Source: Haloquadratum walsbyi J07HQW2 (GTDB lineage: Archaea; Halobacteriota; Halobacteria; Halobacteriales; Haloferacaceae). Taken from it: a stretch of 59,104 nt of DNA. The translations under genes were made by a program, and so were the position numbers. Positions 11,228 through 52,790 of the stretch are shown here, piece after piece. The notes below the pieces were generated by a model. That model saw only the letters and a list, made by a program, of their open reading frames with translations. It was not told the DNA's origin and searched no databases. Within the stretch, counting starts at the first letter, position 1. Each line of letters starts with the position of its first letter. The stretch spans positions 51,490 through 110,593 of the forward strand of contig NZ_KE356561.1 in the NCBI RefSeq assembly GCF_000415985.1, read 5' to 3'.

Positions 11228-11374
11228 TTGGGTTCTGCACCCAAACGAAAAGGACAAGGACTCGATGTCCTACCCCGATCCACTGTTACAGAGGGCTCGA
11301 CCGGTTTGGTCGAGCGGAGTCTCCATGGACGATGTGCCCCTCGACAGACGGGAGTAGTTGCGCTGACAGGGGTA

Positions 11375-16018: not shown

Positions 16019-16525
16019 ATGTCTCTGTCCTGTTCTATCGCTTCTGAATCCGCCCCGACTGAAACAACGTTTTCACTTGAGCAAATTGTAGATAGTCTTC
16101 GTATCATAAATCAATACGCAAAACAAATACAGCAAAAAAGACGATCTCAAACAACAAAACAAAGCATCCAGCAAGAAAGCATCTATGAATACAAACACTG
16201 GATTCTTAATCGAATATATCCACGCACATCATCTGTTGAGATTCACACGATTGGATCCTCTGAGTATTACTGCCTATATTTTGATACAGCATCATTTCAT
16301 ATTCCGAAAAACAAGTTTTCTCATTCAATCTCAGTGACTAATACTCGAACAATTGCAGTTAATTCAAACCAAACTCCAAGCAAGACATATACCGAAGCAC
16401 GAAATGCATTTCAGCTGTTATCTGATGCGTTTCCTCAGTCAATTAATGACTTTTTACCGGTAACTGAGGCATATGATCCGCAATACAATATCATTGCTCC
16501 AACTACGTGGTTCTTAACCGTCTGA
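16019..16525 (+). CDS. Hypothetical protein, second of a two-gene operon
   Basis: This protein has 168 residues. The N-terminal part is helical and Gln-rich (IINQYAKQIQQKRRSQTTKQ). The C-terminal part is mixed alpha/beta (SVEIHTIGSSEYYCLYFDTA). The ATG at 16019 is preferred to a TTG at 16007 because it gives a two-base spacing from the upstream stop. No recognised domain is present. It sits just upstream of the Spt5 paralogue, but a 109-base gap suggests separate transcription. Confidence 0.6.
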   Translation: MSLSCSIASESAPTETTFSLEQIVDSLRIINQYAKQIQQKRRSQTTKQSIQQESIYEYKHWILNRIYPRTSSVEIHTIGSSEYYCLYFDTASFHIPKNKFSHSISVTNTRTIAVNSNQTPSKTYTEARNAFQLLSDAFPQSINDFLPVTEAYDPQYNIIAPTTWFLTV

Positions 16526-16634
16526 ATCATCAACTGTAGCCTTACATAATACAGTCTTATATTGACTGTATCTTAGATAAGGATACAGCTAATTAAAACT
16601 GAATTTTTATGTATTCGTACACTCCACATGAATC

Positions 16635-17054
16635 ATGGCTATCTATGCAGTCTCAACACAATCTGGTGCTGAGGAATCTGTTGCAGATCGAATCGCAAAA
16701 ACTCAAAGTATACACATTCACTCAATTCTCGCTCCGTCTCAACTAAATTCATACATATTAGTTGAATCAGATGGATTGAAGCCTGTAAAAAAAGCCATTA
16801 AGGATATTCCAAAGGCAAACAAAACGTTAGGTGGTAAAACGTCATTGGATGAAGCGTTATCTTATTTAGATACCTCGTCAGAAGTATCAAACGTTTCAAT
16901 CGGTGATACAGTCGATATCATCGGCGGTCCATATAAAGGACAACAAGGGCGTGTGAAGAAAATTAATGAGGATAAAAATCAACTCACTGTTGAATTACAA
17001 AACGAAACAATCCCGATTCCTGTTGCAATAAATAGTGATCAGTATATAGCCTGA
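16635..17054 (+). CDS. spt5: Spt5/NusG-type transcription elongation factor paralogue
   Basis: This 139-residue protein has an NGN domain at residues 1-80 (IYAVSTQSGAEESVADRIAK, SYILVESDG) and a KOW domain at about 85-125 (SIGDTVDIIGGPYKGQQGRV, then DKNQLTVELQNETIPIPV). Spt5 clamps RNA polymerase and raises processivity together with Spt4. Halobacteria normally have one chromosomal copy linked to secE. This gene is not next to secE and is AT-rich, so it is probably an accessory paralogue. Length is complete. A TATA-like tract (ctaattaaaactgaattttta, about 16589-16609) lies before the start. An element-specific transcription role is inferred. Confidence 0.85.
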   Translation: MAIYAVSTQSGAEESVADRIAKTQSIHIHSILAPSQLNSYILVESDGLKPVKKAIKDIPKANKTLGGKTSLDEALSYLDTSSEVSNVSIGDTVDIIGGPYKGQQGRVKKINEDKNQLTVELQNETIPIPVAINSDQYIA

Positions 17055-17833: not shown

Positions 17834-19117
17834 ATGGCGACCGTAATACGCACGTTACAGGCGACTCTTGTGCCACCGACAAGCCACAAGCAAGCCAGCC
17901 TGCAACACTCGGTGGAAACTTATCGCCATGCCCTACAGGAAGCGTTTCAGGCCGATTGTGACACCAAAACGGCGGTTAATGAAGTGGTCACACCATACGA
18001 CCTGAGCAGTTATGCTAAAGACGCCCTGAAAAATTATGTTCCTGATCTGGTTGATGAGGCTGATGAGTTGGATGAAAGCCACCCAGTGAGATATACTGGA
18101 CGTGGGTTGACACTTGACCACGATCCCGACCGTCAAAATAGTTTCTGCTGGCGGGTTCCAAAAGCCCAATCAGCAGAAGGGTCGCCGTTCTTGATTCCAC
18201 TCCGAATCAGTCCAGCACAGCGATCTCTTTGGGATGGAACACTGAACGGTGAGATTGAACCCAACCAGTTTCAGCTACAACGGGACGGTGAAACATGGTC
18301 GTTGCATGTCGGCGTTGACATTGACGTGCCTGACTCAACGTATGATTCAGATAGTGACGGGATAACAACAGTTGGGTTTGATATTGGAGAGGCTCACCTG
18401 CTAGCAGGCTGTGCCTGCACAGACGGTTCTCCGACTGACCCACTGCTGATTACCGGCGGTCACGCCCGACAACTCCGCAAGGGAAAGGAGATGTTTACTA
18501 CACTCTCACGGTTACAGGAACGTGATGTCGCCCAATGGCGCATTGATGAGCGGTTTAATCACTATCAGAACGCCCTGACTGATATTGTCGAAAAGGCAAG
18601 TCGGCAGGCTGTCGATTATGCCCAGCAATTCGACAAGCCGGTGGTTGTGTTGGAGCAGTTGCACAGTATCAGAGAAAACTTAGATTATGGCAAGTGGATG
18701 AACTGAACCGGCGACTGCATAACTGGGCGTTCAGACGGCTTCAAAACGCTATCGAACGGAAAGCGGTTGAGGCTGGTATGCCGGTCGCATATGTACATCC
18801 ACACTACACAAGCCAAACCTGCCATGCCTGCAACCATATCGGATCGAGGAACAGCGACGAATTTCGGTGCACAAATGATGACTGTTGGGTTGGGTAACAG
18901 AATATCACGCAGACATTAACGCTGCGATAAACATAGCCGAGAGGCTCGATCCGTGGGGTGAGAGCCTGCCAGTGAAATCGGCAGGCGATGACATGACATG
19001 TCACGGAATGGGAGCGGTTGTGACACCGCCATGACTCCGACCGGACAGAGCCAATCACAGCAACAGCAAATGACGCTCGGTCGATATGTAGAGCCAGAAC
19101 CCACTGCCAGCGATTAA
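17834..19117 (+). pseudogene. tnpB: tnpB disrupted by three 5-bp tandem duplications
   Basis: The frame starts at 17834 (ATVIRTLQATLVPPTSHKQA). RuvC acids are present in context: GFDIGEAHLLAG, VVLEQLHSIREN and, after correction, HADINAAINIAE. A zinc finger (TSQTCHACNHIG, FRCTNDDC) is also there. Three tandem 5-bp repeats each shift the frame: TGAAC at 18699-18708, TTGGG at 18885-18894 and ACATG at 18991-19000. Deleting one unit of each restores a single 422-residue TnpB ending DPWGESLPVKSAGDD...PTASD at 19117. Because 3 x 5 = 15, the final frame is the original one, but the present gene has stops at 18704-18706 and 18895-18897. Apart from this it looks undecayed, so inactivation is probably recent. 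Confidence 0.85.
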
Positions 19118-19162: not shown

Positions 19163-19288
19163 ATGTCACTTGCATTCCATATTACGGTCCTATTAGATCT
19201 GCAGGTGGTACGGGACAGGCATTATCTGTATTAGTCGCTGATTATCTTAGACAACAATTAGATATTGGTGAGTTTAATTGGATCAGCT
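19163..19288 (+). pseudogene. polC: DNA polymerase D large subunit (DP2) fragment
   Basis: The frame reads [20 protein letters not shown] and continues [15 protein letters not shown] before a stop. This matches the highly conserved [20 protein letters not shown] block near the N-terminal third of archaeal PolD large subunits. Only about 40 codons survive out of over 1,000. The fragment starts at the right tip of the tnpB element and ends at the stop codon of the converging 19287 gene. It is a relic, not a working polymerase. Confidence 0.8.
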
Positions 19289-20006
19289 AATCAGTAACAG
19301 TCATTCTCGGCGCTCCTTTTTGAGCTTCTGTTTGTCCTTTTGGAAGCGTAAACGCCGGAATAAATATTATTTCATCCAACAACGTATGCTCATCATATCC
19401 ATTTTGTTTGGCAACTTCGACATGAGCATATTTTATTAGTTCAAGCTCATCATCTGTGAAATCATATTTGTTCCCCATATTTTCTCGCAGAACACGTCCA
19501 CCGCCAATCACAAATGTCGGTCGAGGATCATCCTCAACGAAATCAAGAATATATGAAAATAATTCATTATCCGTTTCTTCAAGCGACGGTCCAGATAAAT
19601 CCTTCAAAGTGTTGTCACTCAAATACTCGATTATCTTCTCTCGTTCATGCGCAAGCTGTAATGTGAATCGATAGATTACGTACAGTGGATCATCGATGTC
19701 CAACTCAACAGGAATTTCACTAACTTCATTAGATACATACTTCATTTCATCTAGCATTTTTTCCTGTTGTACTCGAATTAACGTTTCAACAGCAGTATCT
19801 ACGATTACTGGATCGTAGGGGTGAGTTAACCGTGTATCTGTATATTCTTGAGATGCACTGTGTGTTCCAAGTAGTTCATCAGCTACGTATTCAAGATCAA
19901 CCCCTAATTGATCTTCGACCGATTCTCTCATACTATGTTTCTCTAAAAACCTAATTACCCGAGAAGCATATGGATCCATATCTGGTAACGATTCGAAGAA
20001 ATTCAT
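19287..20006 (-). CDS. Hypothetical protein
   Basis: This acidic, soluble 239-residue protein is mostly helical ([37 protein letters not shown]-like segments) with a possible strand-loop [18 protein letters not shown]. It ends in an [20 protein letters not shown] tail. No family was recognised. Composition matches the AT-rich island. The candidate structured RNA lies just upstream of its start. Confidence 0.65.
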
Positions 20007-20077
20007 GTTATCTAACAGTTATGCTACTTTTATAAAATAGTTTCCTGAATAGCATTCTGTTCGAAACGTCGTAAAGA

Positions 20078-20087
20078 TTATTAAATA
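20078..20087 (+). promoter_or_regulatory. TATA-like element before candidate RNA
   Basis: The sequence ttattaaata lies about 20-25 bases before the first of three hairpins, at the distance expected between an archaeal TATA box and a transcription start. Confidence 0.4.
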
Positions 20088-20104
20088 GTTATGTATGGAA
20101 TAAT

Positions 20105-20195
20105 ATAGACGCGTTAAGCGTCTAAGATTTGGATCCCATACCCAAATCTATTCAAAGTTATTCCCCTACGAGCTTTCCCCTAAGCTCATTTTTCA
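20105..20195 (+). ncRNA. Candidate structured RNA: three hairpins and a T-run
   Basis: Three inverted repeats follow each other. The first is 20107-20123 (agacgc gttaa gcgtct), the second 20125-20149 (8-bp stem agatttgg/ccaaatct) and the third 20170-20187 (gagctt tcccct aagctc). The last is followed by attttt, like a factor-independent terminator on the plus strand. A TATA-like box lies at the right distance upstream. The segment is noncoding and lies between two leftward genes. This is a structural prediction by eye only. Confidence 0.45.
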
Positions 20196-20223
20196 TTGCA
20201 ACAATCAAGACTAGATACAGTGT

Positions 20224-20682
20224 TTATTTATAGTATTTAATGAGTAATTTTCCTTTATTTCGACTATCGATATATTTATATTTTTCAGATGTATTCTTGT
20301 CAAATTCCCTCATGACTCGATAGATCCGTGAAAACGCTAATTCACTTTGAGTGCTCGTATTCAATAATTTTCGTAATTGACTGGAATCTATCACTCTCCC
20401 TTTGAACGCTGGACTGCTCCAGTCATGATAATTCTCCCATACGATTACAGCTCGTCTTACTGGTTTAGTTAAGCTACCCCCACGTTCAAACACAGACATG
20501 TTGCTGTATCGTTCTAATGAACACACGTCTGCATCAGCTTTGGATTGATCACCATTCACTGAACCGTTTTCGACCATCTGTTCAAATTCAGTAATTCGTT
20601 GAATAAACTCTGCATTCTGTTGTTCTTGAAAATCCATTTGAATTGCAAGATTCTCTGATAGGTCTGTTATTTGCTGGTGCAT
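20224..20682 (-). CDS. Hypothetical protein with N-terminal coiled region
   Basis: This protein has 152 residues. Residues 1-40 are a predicted helical, Gln/Glu-rich segment (ITDLSENLAIQMDFQEQQNA). The C-terminal half (KPVRRAVIVWENYHDW, VIDSSQLRKLLNTSTQSELA, FSRIYRVMREFDKNT) resembles the small C-terminal domain seen in haloarchaeal plasmid and virus proteins of unknown role. A DNA-binding role is possible but unproven. Confidence 0.6.
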   Translation of the reverse strand: MHQQITDLSENLAIQMDFQEQQNAEFIQRITEFEQMVENGSVNGDQSKADADVCSLERYSNMSVFERGGSLTKPVRRAVIVWENYHDWSSPAFKGRVIDSSQLRKLLNTSTQSELAFSRIYRVMREFDKNTSEKYKYIDSRNKGKLLIKYYK

Positions 20683-20894: not shown

Positions 20895-21851
20895 ATGACT
20901 GAAATCACAGTAGACAGTATCCGAGGTCGACTCGATAATGAATTTTCAGAGACGATTCAAGATACTGATATACAGACGGAAATTGACGCATATCTAAATT
21001 TTGGTGTTAGCGACCCTAAGACACTTATTGATGGTGTCATAGATCGACTTGCAGAGAACAATAACACAAGCAAAACAGAAGTCACCCAGGCAACTGCTGA
21101 TGCTTCAGGTGCTGCTCCACTCACGACTATTGAGGATATGGGTGTCAATGAAGAATGGATCACACTTGAAGCCGAAGTAATTCAGTTATGGGATAACGAT
21201 AGTGAATCAATTTCTCAGGTTGGACTATTATCTGATGGGACTGGACGTGTTCAGTTCACTTCATGGGCGAAAAGCGATGTCATAATTCTTGTTGAAAATG
21301 AACAGTATCGATTTGAGAACGTCGTCACTGATGAATATCAAGATAATCCACAGGTGAAACTAAATTCTTCAACTGACATTTCACTGTTGCAAGACGATGA
21401 CAAGAAGGATATCTCACATACAGTTGAATTCACAGGTTCATGTGTATCAATTCAAGATGGATCTGGAATGATAAGACGATGTACAAAAGATGGATGTTCA
21501 CGAGTGCTTACAAGTGATAGCTGTCAAGAACATGGAGCTGTTGACAGTGAATATGATCTTCGTCTCAAGCTCGTGCTTGATAACGGCACTGAGGTTCAAA
21601 ATGTTGTCTGTAATCGTGAAATTACGGAAGAACTCACTGGAATGACACTTGAGGAAGCAAACAGTATAGCACAAGAATCATTAGACACTGATGCACCTGG
21701 ACGGGAAATGGAACCGCTGATACTTGGGTCATATTTCACCGTATCAGGGAATCCATTAGGTGACTTCATTGCTGCAAACGAAATTGCTACAGCCACAGAC
21801 TCAAGAGACGTTGAAGAATTATTGATTAACGCACGATCGCTGTCAGTATAA
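20895..21851 (+). CDS. rpa: Replication protein A (single-stranded DNA-binding) paralogue
   Basis: This 318-residue protein has the haloarchaeal RPA architecture: a helical N-terminus, an OB fold at about 95-165 (AEVIQLWDNDSESISQVGLL, GRVQFTSWAKSD, RFENVVTDEYQ), and a zinc finger near 196-215 (RRCTKDGCSRVLTSDSCQEH). A second OB-like part follows (EYDLRLKLVLDNGTEVQNVV). It binds single-stranded DNA during replication and repair. The gene is followed after four bases by an RPA-associated protein gene, the normal haloarchaeal rpa-rpap pairing. Its AT-rich codons and position among fragments of other replication genes mark it as an accessory copy. Confidence 0.9.
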   Translation: MTEITVDSIRGRLDNEFSETIQDTDIQTEIDAYLNFGVSDPKTLIDGVIDRLAENNNTSKTEVTQATADASGAAPLTTIEDMGVNEEWITLEAEVIQLWDNDSESISQVGLLSDGTGRVQFTSWAKSDVIILVENEQYRFENVVTDEYQDNPQVKLNSSTDISLLQDDDKKDISHTVEFTGSCVSIQDGSGMIRRCTKDGCSRVLTSDSCQEHGAVDSEYDLRLKLVLDNGTEVQNVVCNREITEELTGMTLEEANSIAQESLDTDAPGREMEPLILGSYFTVSGNPLGDFIAANEIATATDSRDVEELLINARSLSV

Positions 21852-24061: not shown

Positions 24062-25012
24062 TTACCCTAAATCTGCAAGATATACCGCAGTTACGTTTCC
24101 GATACCACTTTGCTTGCCACGGGGAGTGTGCCGTTCAAACTGAGGAATATATTCATACGATAATTGTGCATTGCTATTTGAACTGTCAGACTTTGTCGTG
24201 ACCAGAATCCAGCTATCGTTTTCCTCAAGATTCAAATCACCGCTGAATTGTCCTCCAAGATCCCGATAAAACTCTTCTAATTCTGCATTTATTCCATCTG
24301 ATGGGTCCCGAATATTTCTTCCAGGCTGCCCACCCCCGATGAGCAAAATATCATCTGTCTCTTCAGCATTTGTCTCGATAAATTGCTGTATTTCATCTCC
24401 ACATGAATTTCCACACTTGTTTGTTGAACGAGTTTCATCTGCGATGAAATATGTTTTAAACTGTGAATTTGTATGAGTATCTCCCGTTGCATACTCGGTA
24501 ACAGCTCCTGATTCGTCGACAATAAGAATATTAATTCCTGACGATACCTCTTTGATAGGAATTCCATCGACGTGAATTGTAGCTGAACACGTTCCTGGTG
24601 AATCACATGTTGAACTCTTCATTTCAACGAGTGTTGCAGCCGTTTTTGAAAAATAAAATCTATCAATAACTTCTGTATCTTGTCCACGATATCCGATAAC
24701 AGTCAGAGGGTCTGTAATATTACCTGGCTCTGGAGTGAAAATTATGCTCTGTGGTGTGTCTTTGACCGTTTTGATGCTCGAACCATATGACAACGTTACA
24801 TAGTCAATATCAAATAATGATTTTATATCTACCGTCACAGTCGCATCTGTATTTGACTGAAATCCAATATCAGCGTTAATTGGTTCTGAGTTCGTTAGTA
24901 CAACATCAAGAAAGACAGGAGCGGTAATTGATGCAGAGATGAACACAATAACAATCATAATTATCGTTCCAACTACTGATGAAACGCCCTGATTGGTTTG
25001 TTGAGAAATCAC
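24062..25012 (-). CDS. Prepilin-like exported protein with ILEI/PANDER-like domain
   Basis: This protein has 316 residues. The N-terminus QGVSSVVGTIIMIVIVFISA is a class III signal with hydrophobic segment. Residues about 150-290 follow the ILEI (FAM3-type) pattern: SSGINILIVDESGAVTEYAT, then EIQQFIETNAEETDDILLIG and LNLEENDSWILVTTKSD. That layout is opening GxGIxxVVLD, middle FIExxxDxDIVLIA and final LGxRDSWAxI. Four cysteines (CDSPGTC, CGNSCG) may form extracellular disulfides. ILEI domains occur in eukaryotic secreted cytokines and in some bacterial surface glycan proteins. The role here is unknown. Confidence 0.65.
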   Translation of the reverse strand: MISQQTNQGVSSVVGTIIMIVIVFISASITAPVFLDVVLTNSEPINADIGFQSNTDATVTVDIKSLFDIDYVTLSYGSSIKTVKDTPQSIIFTPEPGNITDPLTVIGYRGQDTEVIDRFYFSKTAATLVEMKSSTCDSPGTCSATIHVDGIPIKEVSSGINILIVDESGAVTEYATGDTHTNSQFKTYFIADETRSTNKCGNSCGDEIQQFIETNAEETDDILLIGGGQPGRNIRDPSDGINAELEEFYRDLGGQFSGDLNLEENDSWILVTTKSDSSNSNAQLSYEYIPQFERHTPRGKQSGIGNVTAVYLADLG

Positions 25013-25097
25013 GATGGATTAAATGATAATTTGTTTATATTTATATCCTCTTGCTCCGCCAAGCAATTAAAACTGATCAGATTCAATAAACAAGATG

Positions 25098-25126
25098 AGT
25101 GCCTCGGGGCTTGACCCCGAGGTAGT
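25098..25126. repeat. Solitary tnpB-element end hairpin
   Basis: The sequence tgcctcggggcttgaccccgaggtag contains a cctcgggg/ccccgagg stem with a short loop. It is the same end type as the 5.5-7.0 kb tnpB element. No tnpB lies beside it, so it is a remnant or a stand-alone end. Confidence 0.5.
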
Positions 25127-25320
25127 TCACAATCTTCGGTTGAAAATGATCCTATCACAAACTGCTTTTATTTTTACTTGATATAATAATATTATACACT
25201 ATAGTTACACTTTCTCGTTATATGAATGCTATATTTAATCAAAAACAGATTATATTACATTATTTATCAATTTTCTTTACAGACGAAATTATAAATACAG
25301 TATATACAAGATATAAGCTA

Positions 25321-25995
25321 ATGAGTTCTCGATACACCTTTGCCACTATACTAATTGTAACACTCACTATACTAATTCATGCTGTGATATTTATCCCAGT
25401 ACTCACCGATGAGACCTCAAATAATACAACTCCAGTATCCCCAGCTGACTATCGACCATCTGAAACAACAGAGCACACATTTACTGAAACAACGTTTGAT
25501 ACTGATGTGGTTTCGAATAACGTCAATACCGTATTGAGAGCTACCTACGAACAGAAAAACATTCAATCAAAAGAATCCCCTGTTGCGTTTGTTGAAGCGG
25601 CACGAAGAATAAGTGAGTATCAATATTCGTCTAGCAATCAATCATCATCACATATTCCACTGACATTTATCAATGAGACAATTCCTAACGCACATATCTG
25701 TACAGGATATTCATCAGAAACAGCAGCAGTAACGTATTCGTTGACACAGGCTCATAACTCAGCCAGTTCATCAACAGAACTTAGTCAGTATATGCTTCCA
25801 GCCTCATACGACCGTATTATCAGAGATACACTTGCCGAATTTAACACTGAATCACAAAATAGCACACTCTTCACACACACAACAATACCAAATTATGCGG
25901 TTGGAACAACAGCACATCCAGAATTATCTATTACCGATCCAACCTTCACAATAAGCACAACTGTTCTTATCTGTCATACCACAAACGAATCTTAA
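25321..25995 (+). CDS. Exported or membrane-anchored hypothetical protein
   Basis: This 224-residue protein has one N-terminal hydrophobic segment (TFATILIVTLTILIHAVIFI) followed by a Thr/Ser-rich exported part (DETSNNTTPVSPADY, QSSSHIPLTF). Two Cys residues (HICTGY, LICHTT) might pair outside. The ATG at 25321 is chosen because it places the hydrophobic segment at the N-terminus; a longer frame begins at 25222. No family was recognised. It is divergent from the prepilin-like genes. Confidence 0.55.
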   Translation: MSSRYTFATILIVTLTILIHAVIFIPVLTDETSNNTTPVSPADYRPSETTEHTFTETTFDTDVVSNNVNTVLRATYEQKNIQSKESPVAFVEAARRISEYQYSSSNQSSSHIPLTFINETIPNAHICTGYSSETAAVTYSLTQAHNSASSSTELSQYMLPASYDRIIRDTLAEFNTESQNSTLFTHTTIPNYAVGTTAHPELSITDPTFTISTTVLICHTTNES

Positions 25996-38521: not shown

Positions 38522-40531
38522 ATGTCTCAGAGTACTAGCGATGTTTTTGATGACGTTCAAATAAATTCAGAGACAATATCTTCAACGCAATTTGAAGATA
38601 TGACTGTTGTTGAAGAGTATGACGTGAATAAATATTCTTATGTAACGATTCTCAAATCCGATCTGAATAATGAATATCTATACCGAGTGTGTGAACCAGA
38701 ATTAACAGATTTTGAGGAATTAATTCGATCAGAAGTGGCAAGTAAACTCGTTGATGCATTGAAATATCATGATTTCTTGCAGATTGATCAAGATCTGCTT
38801 CCAAATGTCATCAGACAAAAAGCATACAATATTTTGTCTACATATGTTGTAACTAACAACCGAATAGTTGATTCTGTTCGATCATTGTTCGGAAGAGATT
38901 CAGTAACAATGCTAGGTGAAACTGAAATCGAAAATATTCTGTATTATATTGTTCGTGATTTCTCATATTATGGAAAACTTACCCCACTGATGGAAGATCC
39001 GAATATTGAAGATATATCATGCAATGCATCAAACATTCCACTATTTATTTATCACTCAGAGTATCAAGACCTGATGACCAATGTTGTGTATGATGGTAAT
39101 GAGCTCGATCAGTTCGTTCGAACATTAGCACAGTATGCTGAAAAACATATTTCCATCTCTGATCCATTGCTTGAGGGAGCACTCCCTGACGGGTCTCGAC
39201 TGCAAGCAACATTGTCTGATGAAGTAACTGGTGATGGTAGTAACTTCACAATTCGACAGTTCTCAGATACTCCATTCACGCCAGTTGACTTGATCAAAAC
39301 AAACACCTTCTCACTGGAACAAATGGCATATCTGTGGCTTGCAATTGAAAATAATAAGTCACTGATTTTCTCTGGTGGAACCGCAAGTGGCAAAACAACT
39401 TCGATGAATGCAATTTCATTGTTCATTCCGCCAAGATCAAAAACAATTACAATTGAAGATACGCGTGAGATTTCACTTCGACACAATAACTGGGTAAAAT
39501 CGATTACTCGTGATTCATTTGGCAGCGAGAATGTTGGAGAAATTAATATGTACACGTTACTTGAGTCAGCATTGCGTCAACGACCAGAATATTTGATTGT
39601 TGGTGAGATTCGTGGTGAAGAAGCAATAACATTATTTCAGGCGATGAGCACCGGTCACACCACTTACTCTACAATGCACGCAGATTCTGTTTCTTCAGCG
39701 ATTTACCGGCTTGAAAACGCGCCAATCAATGTCCCTCGTCAAATGATGAGTTCATTAGACATCATGTGCGTTCAGACACAGACCCACATTGGAAATACAA
39801 GAGTTCGACGAAATAAAGTATTAGCTGAAATTGGTAATGTCGACGCAGAAAATAATACATTACAAACAAAGAATATTTTCGAATGGACTGCAGAATCTGA
39901 CTCATTTAAACAATATAGTGATTCAGACTTGCTCAAACAGATCCAATCTCAGCGAGCCTGGTCAGATACTGAATTACAATGGCAACTTGATGCTCGAAAG
40001 GAGCTATTAGAATACTTAGTAACTAATGATATTACTGACTATGAGACGGCATCCGACTTAATTCGAGCGTTTATTCTTGATATTGAGGGAATCTATGAAT
40101 TAATCATAACAGATCAACTTGACGATGAAACGAGTAATTTTACTAATACCAAAGAGCTAATCACACAATCACGTGAGAATAACGCTACTGAGAAACCTGA
40201 CGAGGAGGACACAAACAGCATATACAATACAATGTTTTCATCCATTCGCAAAGCCTTAGGACAAGACACAAAATTAGAGTATAATACGCTTTCATATGAG
40301 GATCCATTACAAAATCCACTAATCCCCGATCCTGATAAAGCCAAACTTGATCCAGTTAGTTCAAATAACGACATAAGGTCAGAACAATTGACCGATAAGA
40401 ATCAATCTACAGCTGTATCAGAGACAGATTCTGATCAGACAACACAGGATAACAACTCAACTGAAATTGATACAAAAATACTACTAGAATTACTTAGACA
40501 AGGGGTTAAACGATCAAAAAACAGCAAATGA
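38522..40531 (+). CDS. pilB: Type IV pilus assembly ATPase (PilB/GspE/VirB11 type)
   Basis: This 669-residue cytoplasmic ATPase powers pilus or archaellum-like assembly. A FlaI/GspE-type N-terminal domain (YGKLTPLMEDPNIEDISCNA, PLFIYHSEYQDLMTN) is followed by Walker A near residues 284-293 (GGTASGKTTSMN), the Asp box (TIEDTREISLRHNNW), and Walker B near 356 (EYLIVGEIRGEEA). The His box (MSTGHTTYSTMHAD) is also there. The C-terminal 200 residues add an acidic Asn/Asp-rich tail. The stop overlaps the start of the pilC-like gene by four bases (ATGA). Pilin-like genes lie 10-15 kb to the left rather than alongside. Confidence 0.9.
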   Translation: MSQSTSDVFDDVQINSETISSTQFEDMTVVEEYDVNKYSYVTILKSDLNNEYLYRVCEPELTDFEELIRSEVASKLVDALKYHDFLQIDQDLLPNVIRQKAYNILSTYVVTNNRIVDSVRSLFGRDSVTMLGETEIENILYYIVRDFSYYGKLTPLMEDPNIEDISCNASNIPLFIYHSEYQDLMTNVVYDGNELDQFVRTLAQYAEKHISISDPLLEGALPDGSRLQATLSDEVTGDGSNFTIRQFSDTPFTPVDLIKTNTFSLEQMAYLWLAIENNKSLIFSGGTASGKTTSMNAISLFIPPRSKTITIEDTREISLRHNNWVKSITRDSFGSENVGEINMYTLLESALRQRPEYLIVGEIRGEEAITLFQAMSTGHTTYSTMHADSVSSAIYRLENAPINVPRQMMSSLDIMCVQTQTHIGNTRVRRNKVLAEIGNVDAENNTLQTKNIFEWTAESDSFKQYSDSDLLKQIQSQRAWSDTELQWQLDARKELLEYLVTNDITDYETASDLIRAFILDIEGIYELIITDQLDDETSNFTNTKELITQSRENNATEKPDEEDTNSIYNTMFSSIRKALGQDTKLEYNTLSYEDPLQNPLIPDPDKAKLDPVSSNNDIRSEQLTDKNQSTAVSETDSDQTTQDNNSTEIDTKILLELLRQGVKRSKNSK

Positions 40532-42552
40532 AGTCACAACTCAAAAAGACACAACAACTCAATGACACACTAACCGATCTAAGCTTTACTCAGTCACTTT
40601 TAGAGGCAAGTATTGATAAACATGCGTATGCGCTGTTTGGACAACTATTTATTGGGAATAAAGACTCATATAGTGATTTCCAAAGAAAACTTAATCAAGC
40701 ACGGATTCCGCTGAGCCACGATGTCTATCTGTCTCGAGTTTTATTCTATAGTATTTTTAGCCTGATCGTTGGGACTCTGTTATCAATTACCGTTCCATTG
40801 ATCATACAAAATTATGCTGTGTACTTATTTGAAGGGATCTCCGGCATGGAGACAGTATCGACTGCCGTATCAATAAAACCAGTTGTTGTGGTTGGGTTAA
40901 TTTCGTTTCTCATATTTGGTTTAGGTGGATTTATGACTACCTTTTTAGGCTTCATTCTCTACCCCGTGTACATCGCAAACGAGCGAAAGCGAAAAATAAA
41001 TATTAATCTCCCATTTGCGACGACATTCATGTATGCAATGTCTCGTGGCGGTGTTACCATTATAGATGTTATTAAGACTGTAGCAGAAGCAGAAGACACC
41101 TATGGACAGGTTTCTGTTGAATTTCAAGGGATTGCAAACAGCACTCATTACTCAACAAATGACCTGCGTAGCGCTATTAAAAACGAAATAGACATCACCC
41201 CGTCTGCAAAGTTGAGTGAGTTCCTTGAAGATCTGATTAATATCATTGATACTGGATCAGACATGGATACGTTCTTTTTGAATAGATCAGAAACGTATAT
41301 TGAAGAATCCAAAGAAGAACAAAAACAAATCCTCGATCAGCTTGAAGTAATGAGTGAAGTATATATTGTACTGTTCGTCGCATCACCTATCTTTGTCTTA
41401 GTGATTAATGTCGTAATGCTCTTTCTTGGAGCATCAAATGCCAATATCCTATATGCACTAGCATATTTGGTAATTCCACTCGGTGGAGGAGTTTTCATCG
41501 CAATTGTTTGGATTATCTCTGAATCTCAAACAGAATCTGTCTCAAAACTAGATAATACAGATGACCATATTTTCATAGAAAATTCATACGACTTAGAGGC
41601 TGCTAACGCGGATGAACGATACAGTCAATACAGAAAACAGAAGCTACGAAAATGGCTCAAACAAGGGTTAGTCGATTCATATAAAATAATCATTGAGCGT
41701 CCGGTATACACATTTATTTTTACAATTCCAGCAGCAATTGTTGCTGTAGTATTTTTACAAGAGAATACGATTGCTGAATTAACTCACTCAGCATTCATCC
41801 AAAATCCAGAGACGAACTCGTTGTACTTACTGTACATTCCAGGTCTCATCGCAATGATACCTTTTGTTATTCTCTATGAGCTGCAACAACGCAACAAGAG
41901 AGTGGTTCTTCGACGTATCCCTGAAGCATTTAGCACCGCTGCTGAGGCAAATAGTCGAGGATTAATGCTTAGTGACTCATTTGACGTCGTAGCAAACAAT
42001 TCAACAGACTATCTTTCCTCAAAATTGCAGGTAGCTATCAATGAGAGTCGATGGACAAACTCATTTGAAAGAGCGCTTATTCGATTCGCTAATGACATTG
42101 AAGTCTCTCGACTTTCACGAACAATCAAACTTGTCACAAAAGCAAACAAACTGACCGGAGACATTCAAGCCGTGCTTGAGATAGCTGCTAAAGATCTAAA
42201 ACTCATGGCTGAATTAGATGCTGAACGAGTGAAACAATCATATATGCAGATTGTTGTGATCTTTGTCTCATACTTCATTTCAGTTTGCATCATTGTCTCC
42301 CTTGAAATAATGTTTATCCAAATGCTTGGAGATTCAGCGTTTCAAACAGGGAGTGGCGAGCTAGATACGCTTGGAGGGATAAACACTGGAATACGTCAAG
42401 AGATTAATCTTATATTGCTACATATAGCAATGGCTCTTGGAGTAACCTCAGGAATTGTCGGATCAACAATGGCGAACAATGACCCCCTCAAGGGTATCAA
42501 GTTTGCACTCATTCTCTCGGGAATAGGGCTATTTGCATTCTTGATTGTTTAG
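40528..42552 (+). CDS. pilC: Type IV pilus assembly membrane protein (PilC/TadC/FlaJ type)
   Basis: This 674-residue polytopic membrane protein has two GspF-like halves. Transmembrane helices occur near 65-85 (VLFYSIFSLIVGTLLSITVP), 120-140, 280-320 and 395-415, and in the last 60 residues (LHIAMALGVTSGIVGSTMAN). Cytoplasmic GspF domains contain PFATTFMYAMSRGGVTIIDV and EAFSTAAEANSRGLMLSD. It forms the membrane platform for the PilB ATPase. Length and organisation match haloarchaeal PilC proteins. Translation is coupled to pilB through ATGA. Confidence 0.88.
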   Translation: MKSQLKKTQQLNDTLTDLSFTQSLLEASIDKHAYALFGQLFIGNKDSYSDFQRKLNQARIPLSHDVYLSRVLFYSIFSLIVGTLLSITVPLIIQNYAVYLFEGISGMETVSTAVSIKPVVVVGLISFLIFGLGGFMTTFLGFILYPVYIANERKRKININLPFATTFMYAMSRGGVTIIDVIKTVAEAEDTYGQVSVEFQGIANSTHYSTNDLRSAIKNEIDITPSAKLSEFLEDLINIIDTGSDMDTFFLNRSETYIEESKEEQKQILDQLEVMSEVYIVLFVASPIFVLVINVVMLFLGASNANILYALAYLVIPLGGGVFIAIVWIISESQTESVSKLDNTDDHIFIENSYDLEAANADERYSQYRKQKLRKWLKQGLVDSYKIIIERPVYTFIFTIPAAIVAVVFLQENTIAELTHSAFIQNPETNSLYLLYIPGLIAMIPFVILYELQQRNKRVVLRRIPEAFSTAAEANSRGLMLSDSFDVVANNSTDYLSSKLQVAINESRWTNSFERALIRFANDIEVSRLSRTIKLVTKANKLTGDIQAVLEIAAKDLKLMAELDAERVKQSYMQIVVIFVSYFISVCIIVSLEIMFIQMLGDSAFQTGSGELDTLGGINTGIRQEINLILLHIAMALGVTSGIVGSTMANNDPLKGIKFALILSGIGLFAFLIV

Positions 42553-43594: not shown

Positions 43595-44891
43595 ATGGCA
43601 AAACAGGTTGTCACGCGCACCTATACTGCTTCCATTCGGAATCAGTCACGGGTGTCCGACGATCTTGATGCCCTTGGGTTCGCAGCCTCGAAACTCTGGA
43701 ACGTCGGACGGTGGACGTGTAGTCGCATCTGGGGTGAAATCGGTCACATCCCGAACCACACCGAACTCACCGCGTACCTCAAGAATCACGAGCGCTACGA
43801 TGACCTGCATTCGCAGTCAAGTCAGCGAGTGCTTCAAGAACTCGCTCTCGCTGAAGCGTTCCGTGGGTGGTACGGCAAACGACGCAACGGAGACGTGAGA
43901 GCGAACCCGCCCGGCTACCGCAAACGTAAGTGGTGACGAACACCCACGGAGCACGGTGACGTTCAAAGCCGCTGGCTTCAAACTCGATACCCAGTACAAC
44001 CGCGTCCGGCTCTCTCAAGGCGCCAACCTCAAGAACTATTGGTCGGACTTCATCCTCTGTACATTCCACACTCGCCCCGACGTTGACCTCTCCACTGTAG
44101 AGGCCGTCCAGCAAGTGAAAGCAGTGTGGACAGGCGACGAATGGGAACTTCGCTTCGTCTGTCAAGTGGAGATTGAGGTATCTGAGTCGCCCGGCGAGAA
44201 GACCGTCGGTGTTGATCTCGGTATTAAAAATTTTGCCACGCTCGCCTACGAGGACGGTCACAGCGAGCTGTACCCGCTCAATTGCTTGAAACAGGACGAC
44301 TATTACTTCAGCAAACGGATTGCTCGGTGTGACGACTCACACTCTGAGCAAGCCACCCGGCTGAACCAGAAGAAGTCGGAGCGCCGCACTCACTACTTCC
44401 ACGCGCTCTCGAAGCACATTGTTGAACGGTGTGTTGAGGAGGGCGTTGGAACTATCGTGGTCGGCAATCTCTCCGACATCCGTGTGGATGAGAAGACCGA
44501 TGAGGCAAAAACTGGGGTAGGCATGGAAAACCTCGATCTCCACTCGTGGGCGTTTGACCGGTTCACGAAGCTGCTCACCTACAAAGTAGAGACGGAAGGC
44601 ATCACGGTTGAGCAGGAGTCTGAGCGCAATACGTCGAAGTCGAAGTCGTGTTCGTGTTGCAGCCGCAAGCGGGATGGGAACCGCGTTGAACGCGGGTTGT
44701 ACGTCTGCGATACGTGCGGTACAGTGGCGAACGGGGATGTAAACGGTGCTGAGAACATTCGACAGAAAGTATCTCCGAGTTCACCGAATCTGTCGGTGAA
44801 TAGGAGTAACGGCTGGTTGGTACAGCCATCGACGTTCCTGTTTGACAAGGAGACTGGTGCGTTTGCACCTCAAGAACGGGTTAGATCGTAA
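43595..44891 (+). pseudogene. tnpB: tnpB, one frameshift
   Basis: The N-terminal frame 43595-43936 (VVTRTYTASIRNQSRVSDDL, ASKLWNVGRWTCSRI) breaks in RKRKW. The remainder continues in another frame to 44891. One inserted base near 43929 explains it. RuvC segments are VGVDLGIKNFATLAYE, IVVGNLSDIRVDE and NGDVNGAENIRQ. A zinc finger (CSCCSRKRDG, YVCDTCG) is present. In the second RuvC segment an Asn (VGNL) stands where related proteins have an acid, so catalysis may have been lost as well as the frame. Confidence 0.85.
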
Positions 44892-44931
44892 ACCACAATG
44901 TCCCAACTCAGCGGTGCGGTGCCGTGGGAAT

Positions 44932-44951
44932 CCTCGCGCTTCAGCGCGGGG
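44932..44951. repeat. Right-end hairpin of tnpB element
   Basis: cctcgcgc ttca gcgcgggg lies 40 bases after the tnpB stop and is followed by gaggatgtca, the same tail type as after the 19140 hairpin. Confidence 0.6.
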
Positions 44952-44969
44952 AGGATGTCAAGTCAGCAT

Positions 44970-51857: not shown

Positions 51858-52790
51858 GTGACTTTCGTAGATATTACCAACTCTATCGCAGCTGACGAAT
51901 TAATTGTTAATGAGTTTCAAGAATCTGTTATCCAGCCACACTATGCACATGATATTGTGTCTTTTGAGGATGCGATTGACGACACATTCTATATGCAGTG
52001 GACAAATATTGACAATTCATATCCTGAATTCGCAGCTGACCTTATCGATCAGCCAACAAAGTTCTACTATCAAGCCGAATACGCACTACGGGAATTTGAT
52101 CCTATTGTTGAGAATGCTGAACTACGTATCATAGGGTGTCCAGACCAAACTTCAATCCGTGATCTTCGGGCAAAAGACATCAATACCTTAGTTAGCATAG
52201 ATGGGATCATTTCAAAAGTAACCGAGGTGAAACCAGAATTTACTGTAACAGTATTTCAATGTGAAGAGGATGGGCAGGAAGTCAGTGTATTTCAAACTGA
52301 CGAGTCATTCACCAATACTACGTGCCCAGATTGTGGACCTGAACTTTCCGAAAGTCAGATCAGCTATACAGAAAGTAGCTTACTTAACTATCAGAAAGTC
52401 CAAATGCAAGAAACTCCTGAGAATGTACTTGGCGGAGACAATCTCCAAGCTATCGATATCACTCTCATTGGGGATATAACTGGCAATTTCTCTCCTGGTG
52501 ATCGAGTTGTAGCTACTGGGATTCTTCGAGAGAATATGAGCACTGTCGGAAACAATCAAAAGAGATCAATTCCTGATACATATGTTCAGGGATTTTCACT
52601 TACGAAGGAGCAGCAGGAATTTGAGGAACTCATCATCACCGATTCAGATGAAACTCGAATTGAAGAATTAGCGAACTCATATGATATTTATGAACGATTA
52701 TCCGAGAGTATTGCATCATCGATCTATGGGTATGAATATGAAAAACTCGCATTAGTGTTACAATTATTCTCAGGCGTAACAAAAGTGTGA
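51858..52790 (+). CDS. mcm: MCM N-terminal domain protein lacking the AAA+ domain
   Basis: This 310-residue protein follows the archaeal MCM N-terminal region: helical domain A, an OB-fold part (LRAKDINTLVSIDGIISKVT, then VTVFQCEEDGQEVSVFQTDE), and ITLIGDITGNFSPGDRVVAT. It ends at the linker ESIASSIYGYEYEKLALVLQ-LFSGVTK, directly before where the Walker A-bearing AAA+ domain should begin. The zinc site looks incomplete: one early Cys and CPDC remain, with CEED where CxxC is expected. It cannot be a helicase. The start at 51858 is a GTG. The 3' end faces a probable PolD small-subunit fragment tail-to-tail, suggesting a deletion joint. Confidence 0.85.
   Translation: MTFVDITNSIAADELIVNEFQESVIQPHYAHDIVSFEDAIDDTFYMQWTNIDNSYPEFAADLIDQPTKFYYQAEYALREFDPIVENAELRIIGCPDQTSIRDLRAKDINTLVSIDGIISKVTEVKPEFTVTVFQCEEDGQEVSVFQTDESFTNTTCPDCGPELSESQISYTESSLLNYQKVQMQETPENVLGGDNLQAIDITLIGDITGNFSPGDRVVATGILRENMSTVGNNQKRSIPDTYVQGFSLTKEQQEFEELIITDSDETRIEELANSYDIYERLSESIASSIYGYEYEKLALVLQLFSGVTKV

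Follow-up and report, generated by a model that had tools for sequence, protein, structure and literature searches.

We propose that the 217-nt gap between two leftward ORFs, ORF152 and ORF239, harbors a stand-alone intergenic small RNA (sRNA) gene on the plus strand of a probably integrated, AT-rich element of Haloquadratum walsbyi J07HQW2, a reading to which we assign, judging from sequence features, a rough probability of 0.55. A small RNA at this locus is likely. Computed at the locus are the fold itself, promoter-like and terminator-like ends, the lack of a notable coding frame, and its single copy. The component features are listed below, with coordinates referring to the window, i.e., the whole stretch of 59,104 nt that was analysed.

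19287-20006, minus strand: ORF239, leftward flank, with its own promoter-like site (BRE GGAAA, TTWT from 20037).
20070-20087, plus strand: predicted promoter, consisting of a BRE-like CGTAA (20070-20074) and a TATA-like TTAT(TAAATA) from 20078.
20106-20124, plus strand: hairpin 1, TAGACGC-GTTAA-GCGTCTA, 7 bp with loop GTTAA.
20125-20149, plus strand: hairpin 2, AGATTTGG-(9)-CCAAATCT, 8 bp with loop ATCCCATAC, directly adjoining hairpin 1.
20150-20169, plus strand: linker of 20 nt, unpaired in the fold and containing TTCCCCTA (20161-20168).
20170-20187, plus strand: hairpin 3, GAGCTT-TCCCCT-AAGCTC, 6 bp with loop TCCCCT, the putative terminator stem.
20189-20194, plus strand: T5C tail (T5 at 20189-20193, C at 20194), the predicted 3' end.
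20224-20682, minus strand: ORF152, leftward flank, with distant relatives in 19 other genomes of the 292 searched.

The locus lies in an AT-rich block at about 14-56 kb of the window (14000-56000; hereafter the island), where the G+C content per 2-kb step is 37-55% (38.7% at the locus), versus 54-60% in the 14 kb leftward. According to family searches, the block encodes Spt5, RPA, TFB, a PilB3-like ATPase, pilins, and a partial integrase. It also contains a prematurely ending MCM, a broken-looking tnpB, and a surface-glycoprotein-like giant, and the protein encoded at 40528-42552 has matches in four haloarchaeal plasmids (26-31% identity) and is similar to type II secretion F family proteins borne on plasmids. 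Based on this composition and gene content, we regard the block as a probable integrated element that brings its own factors for transcription and replication. As to individual genes, the MCM ORF (51858-52790, plus strand, 310 aa) breaks off after 46 of the 224 positions of the P-loop domain model. The tnpB-like gene (17834-18897, plus strand) consists of two overlapping frames (17834-18706 and 18694-18897) that both match TnpB models and is apparently frame-broken, and an Rfam sot0042 RNA (44767-44952, plus strand, 151.2 bits) is found at the 3' end of the ORF at 43956-44891.

The three stems are all perfect and span 20106-20187 on the plus strand, followed by TTTTTC. The initial annotation had described three inverted repeats with stems of 6, 8, and 6 bp and a T-run; all of these are present where it placed them, and the stem lengths are right for hairpins 2 and 3, whereas hairpin 1 has 7 bp. 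It had also called the stretch noncoding, which agrees with our finding that only two frames of at least 20 aa overlap 20040-20223, with lengths of 34 and 30 aa and both with TTG starts; the candidate locus lies between genes and has no notable coding frame, as expected of an intergenic sRNA.

Fold prediction against shuffled controls, one of the checks suggested with that annotation, gave more structure than expected by chance. The RNA fold of 20104-20195 on the plus strand has an energy of -27.0 kcal/mol, compared with -9.1 (sd 2.54) in 200 shuffles (z -7.05), while the minus-strand RNA is less extreme (z -5.09); none of the 200 shuffles folds as well on either strand. Pair probabilities reach at least 0.8 in each of the three stems. 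Among 11,804 segments of the window (92 nt, both strands, step 10) that were scanned with a correction for composition, the locus is the second most extreme. Other extreme folds of the window are a strong hairpin at 16490-16640 on the minus strand, just upstream of the Spt5 gene, and a GC-rich hairpin, CCTCGGGG...CCCCGAGG (25061-25165), located between the divergent ORFs at 24062-25012 (minus strand) and 25222-25995 (plus strand). The window has 2 places where three perfect stems of at least 6 bp fall within 92 nt, whereas 60 shuffles of the island gave on average 0.15 per 42 kb. The second such cluster (11228-11315; 6, 6, and 8 bp) is outside the island and has no T-run after it. A looser descriptor, in which a stretch of 100 nt holds three or more perfect stems and TTTT follows the last of them, is found once in the island, and any occurrence at all in 19 of 1984 island shuffles; across 71 sequences (417 kb, with the locus itself included seven times), it is found solely at the candidate locus. 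A chance origin of the hairpin cluster is therefore unlikely, though the spot had been picked from the whole 59-kb window.

The plus strand also carries a well-placed promoter-like site. Using the published haloarchaeal motifs BRE CGAAA and TATA TTWT (motifs from PMC4983044) in a crude consensus scan with a maximum score of 9, we found that CGTAA-AGA-TTAT, with TTAT at 20078, scores 8/9 and is the best plus-strand site of the gap, located 28-31 nt ahead of the base of hairpin 1. In the island, each strand has on average 0.49 sites per kb with a score of at least 8. Among 16 gene starts scored in the same way (one shifted to an internal ATG), five reach 7-8, namely those of ORF239, Spt5, o15747, o26314, and a TrmB-like gene, with a TTWT-to-start-codon distance of 28-31 nt in the first four and 34 nt in the TrmB-like gene; the remaining 11 score 6 or less, making this promoter control a partial one. 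The motifs and gap lengths were selected after the sequence had been seen, and we take the result as supportive rather than as independent proof. From the promoter score and spacing, the RNA is predicted to start at 20106-20109, at or just inside the base of hairpin 1. The TATA-like box of the initial annotation, TTATTAAATA, is indeed present at 20078-20087, but is unremarkable when taken alone: a WTTWAWA scan did not pick it on the plus strand and picked the same stretch on the minus strand. Read on the minus strand, AACTATTTAATAA repeats or resembles AACTATTTTATAA of the ORF239 promoter. A sigma-70 scan is inapplicable to archaea.

At the other end, the T5C tail directly behind hairpin 3 exactly matches a signal described in Haloferax volcanii, where intergenic transcription is reported to terminate at T stretches ending at C, and where insertion of T5C into a reporter led to termination of 95% of transcripts (PMC7237163). 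According to the same report, 503 of 1,543 Haloferax 3' ends are preceded by hairpins, and one hairpin that was tested gave 59% termination (PMC7237163). In the island, a perfect hairpin of at least 6 bp is immediately followed by T5C at two sites (20189 and 49521, both on the plus strand), with a shuffle mean of 0.31 and two such sites attained in 8 of 200 shuffles. A predicted 3' end in the form of a T stretch ending in C is thus present at 20189-20194, and the predicted start and stop bracket the hairpins and would yield an RNA about 86-89 nt long (20106/9-20194). Predictions of this kind call for caution: according to a review, attempts to predict archaeal sRNAs by their promoters and terminators had been unsuccessful, and basal promoter elements were seen in only 38% of Haloferax sRNA genes (PMC3432209).

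These two ends bear on whether the hairpins belong to a neighboring gene. The initial annotation had offered a structured leader as one possibility, which we consider unlikely on either strand. The next plus-strand gene, RPA, starts at 20895, past the whole antisense ORF152 and past T5C, while ORF239 has a separate promoter-like site of its own on the minus strand (8/9), with TTWT 31 nt before its ATG and between the hairpins and the gene. Given this site, ORF239 is predicted to be leaderless, as reported for 72% of Haloferax protein-coding transcripts (PMC4983044), and the hairpins lie upstream of the site. In family searches, ORF239 had no match that would identify it as a replication gene, and the AlphaFold2 models of both flanking proteins, each predicted alone, are poor (mean pLDDT 36 for ORF239 and 42 for ORF152).

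The main rival to a stand-alone sRNA gene is a minus-strand role of the hairpins in the 3' UTR of ORF152, where they would serve as a termination, processing, or mRNA-stability structure past the stop codon. Hairpins do accompany some Haloferax 3' ends (PMC7237163), but here they start at least 37 nt past the ORF152 stop codon. The minus strand folds significantly too (z -5.09), but the plus-strand fold is more extreme against its own shuffles; and while no five-T run follows ORF152 on the minus strand before ORF239, and hairpin 1 with TATTATTCCA was itself scored as terminator-like on that strand, both T5C and the well-placed 8/9 promoter-like site are on the plus strand. Taken together, we regard the 3' UTR function as doubtful. 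At 20133-20180, the minus strand also contains four runs of 3-4 G separated by long spacers, which might form a G-quadruplex, though a poor one.

Alternatively, the locus may be a DNA-level site for binding, recombination, or replication, with strands that form hairpins when single-stranded. Folded as single-stranded DNA, both strands are significant (z -6.97 and -6.00), so that the fold by itself is no proof of RNA, and an RPA gene is nearby and a partial integrase is present in the block. We consider such a site quite improbable, as the locus is single copy with no repeat family in the genome, the window contains no origin-box-like motif (up to one mismatch), and the surrounding plus-strand signals are those of a transcription unit.

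Similarly improbable, although geometrically possible, is the bolder reading of a counter-transcribed antisense RNA, in which the plus-strand RNA would pair over its full length with an ORF152-to-ORF239 read-through RNA and thereby control ORF239. CopA of plasmid R1 is a bacterial-type counter-transcribed RNA, and the candidate is similar to it in size, in its consecutive stem-loops, in its 3' terminator, and in being antisense to the region upstream of a neighboring gene: a short hairpin RNA with a terminator would lie past ORF152 and opposite the sequence upstream of ORF239, and no T5 terminator follows ORF152 on the minus strand. The candidate differs from CopA in that its neighbor ORF239 is no known replication gene, having no match to any replication-gene family, and in that a promoter-like site belonging to ORF239 lies downstream of the overlap. 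A literature search for countertranscribed RNA in archaea together with plasmid found no paper; PMC11431627 comes from the literature on haloarchaeal antisense RNA, plasmid replication, and copy number. Least probable of all is a chance or decayed sequence without function, which would fit the lack of conservation in the genomes searched, the loose descriptor turning up in shuffles (19 of 1984), and a spot picked from 59 kb, but not the stems of 7, 8, and 6 bp, the z of -7.05, and the properly positioned signals resembling a promoter and a terminator.

We searched extensively for relatives of the candidate sRNA. In its own genome, it is single copy by both DNA search and covariance model and does not belong to a MITE-like or dispersed repeat. 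DNA searches with 231 nt in 60 genomes and with 1.6 kb in 170 family genomes, each including its own, returned only the locus itself, and blastn with queries of 1.7 kb and 141 nt found no homolog among plasmids and phages. Two weak plasmid/phage blastn matches, each covering 23% of the query (E 0.1 and 5), were attributed to chance. A covariance model, which was built from one sequence (two overlapping copies of the candidate), was run under stricter Infernal filters on 391 class genomes including its own and matched only the locus itself and one place in another genome (E 0.19), likewise taken as chance. In the window, its other match below E 0.5 is on the opposite strand only and overlaps hairpin 1 (20.8 bits, E 0.019). 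The candidate has no Rfam match at gathering scores, the window's sole sot0042 match being the one at 44767-44952, and a loose threshold gave two nearby matches (E 6.8 at 20008-20095, and E 8.8), neither over the hairpins. Short exact patterns were found in IMG/VR for hairpin 2 in 16 contigs and for hairpin 1 in 2, but none of these 18 loci has a three-hairpin unit, and they were set aside as chance.

Neighboring genes were also used as baits. ORF239 has no match in IMG/VR, plasmids, or GTDB contigs; among 391 class genomes it matched itself and two remote C-terminal sequences (E 2.1e-5 and 3.9e-4), and inspection of both neighborhoods by eye found nothing similar to the candidate. ORF152 has no match in GTDB contigs and matches in 20 of 292 genomes including its own, at 30 places among the matches listed; in the neighborhoods of 15 of the 29 non-self places listed, there is no similar RNA (best covariance-model match E 2.8). 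RPA, with matches in 382 of 382 genomes searched, is useless as bait in genomes, and neither RPA nor the island TFB as baits in IMG/VR led to anything. Conservation of the fold was thus not found in 59 relatives, 169 other family genomes, or 390 other class genomes; a conserved fold is used for sRNA prediction and is not strictly required for membership in the class. As there is no homolog, there is no covariation to assess, which weighs neither for nor against an RNA.

Very many intergenic sRNAs have been reported in haloarchaea (PMC6560208, PMC5892119), and the candidate probably belongs to this known class (a class, not a sequence family), as an ordinary and unsurprising member. A well-studied example is sRNA132 of Haloferax volcanii, which is limited to one genus, conserved in more than 10 Haloferax species, and transcribed (PMC6560208). 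The candidate is similar to sRNA132 (PMC6560208) in being intergenic and monocistronic, with its own promoter-like elements and a narrow lineage, and in having stems separated by a pyrimidine-rich unpaired linker. sRNA132 has two stems and a 13-nt linker (PMC6560208), whereas the candidate has three stems and a 20-nt linker, and it is transcribed and conserved, whereas the candidate is predicted from sequence and no homolog was found. The sot RNAs of tnpB genes (Rfam sot0042) are another case of structured haloarchaeal RNA on a mobile element, but no Rfam model matches the candidate at gathering scores, and it does not lie at the 3' end of a tnpB gene.

How such an sRNA would work can be outlined. 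We infer transcription, protection by the stems, and regulation by base pairing: TFB and TBP would bind the BRE and TATA at 20070-20087, transcription would start at about 20106-20109 and stop at T5C behind hairpin 3 (20194), a stacked 5' module would be made up of hairpins 1 and 2, and the 3' end would be protected by hairpin 3. Pairing with mRNAs may then be seeded by the unpaired C-rich stretches (loop 2, the linker, and loop 3, with TTCCCCTA present twice). As counted from the fold, 40 nt within and between the stems are unpaired, of which 14 are C and 2 are G, and the 8-mer TTCCCCTA occurs both in the linker (20161-20168) and across loop 3 (20175-20182), which makes these stretches natural candidate pairing seeds. 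The regulatory RNA suggested by the initial annotation thus stands as far as a promoter-hairpins-terminator architecture on the plus strand is concerned (the fold, the descriptor, the 8/9 site, and T5C), with its transcription and regulation being predictions.

No target stands out in either the linker duplexes or the genome-wide seed searches. When duplex energies were computed against the 5' and 3' ends of 27 window ORFs (ORF152 not among them), the linker did no better than shuffled linkers, 84.5% and 90.5% of 200 linker shuffles reaching the observed best value. Genome-wide complements of the linker seed with up to 3 mismatches number 3 non-self, versus 6 in the reversed control, as chance would give. 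For the loop-2 seed, there are 10 non-self complements with up to 3 mismatches versus 0 in the control, a count that we do not take as evidence because two of the ten are identical and the control contains CTAG, which is rare in haloarchaea.

To our knowledge, haloarchaeal sRNAs number in the thousands, and few have a known mechanism. A more specific and rather unlikely version of the sRNA reading is an element-specific regulatory RNA, in which a probably integrated element with its own Spt5, TFB, and RPA would also encode its own sRNA. This sRNA would act through repeated C-rich seeds (two copies of TTCCCCTA and the CCC-rich loop 2), or by pairing as a full antisense with ORF152-ORF239 read-through RNA, and would thereby control element maintenance or re-program host mRNAs. 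If transcribed, the candidate would represent a small and sharply bounded sRNA gene carried by a haloarchaeal element, whose predicted start, stop at T5C, and exposed C-rich seeds each lend themselves to separate testing. Such a lineage-specific, element-borne sRNA would be a convenient test case for the origin and pairing of these RNAs.
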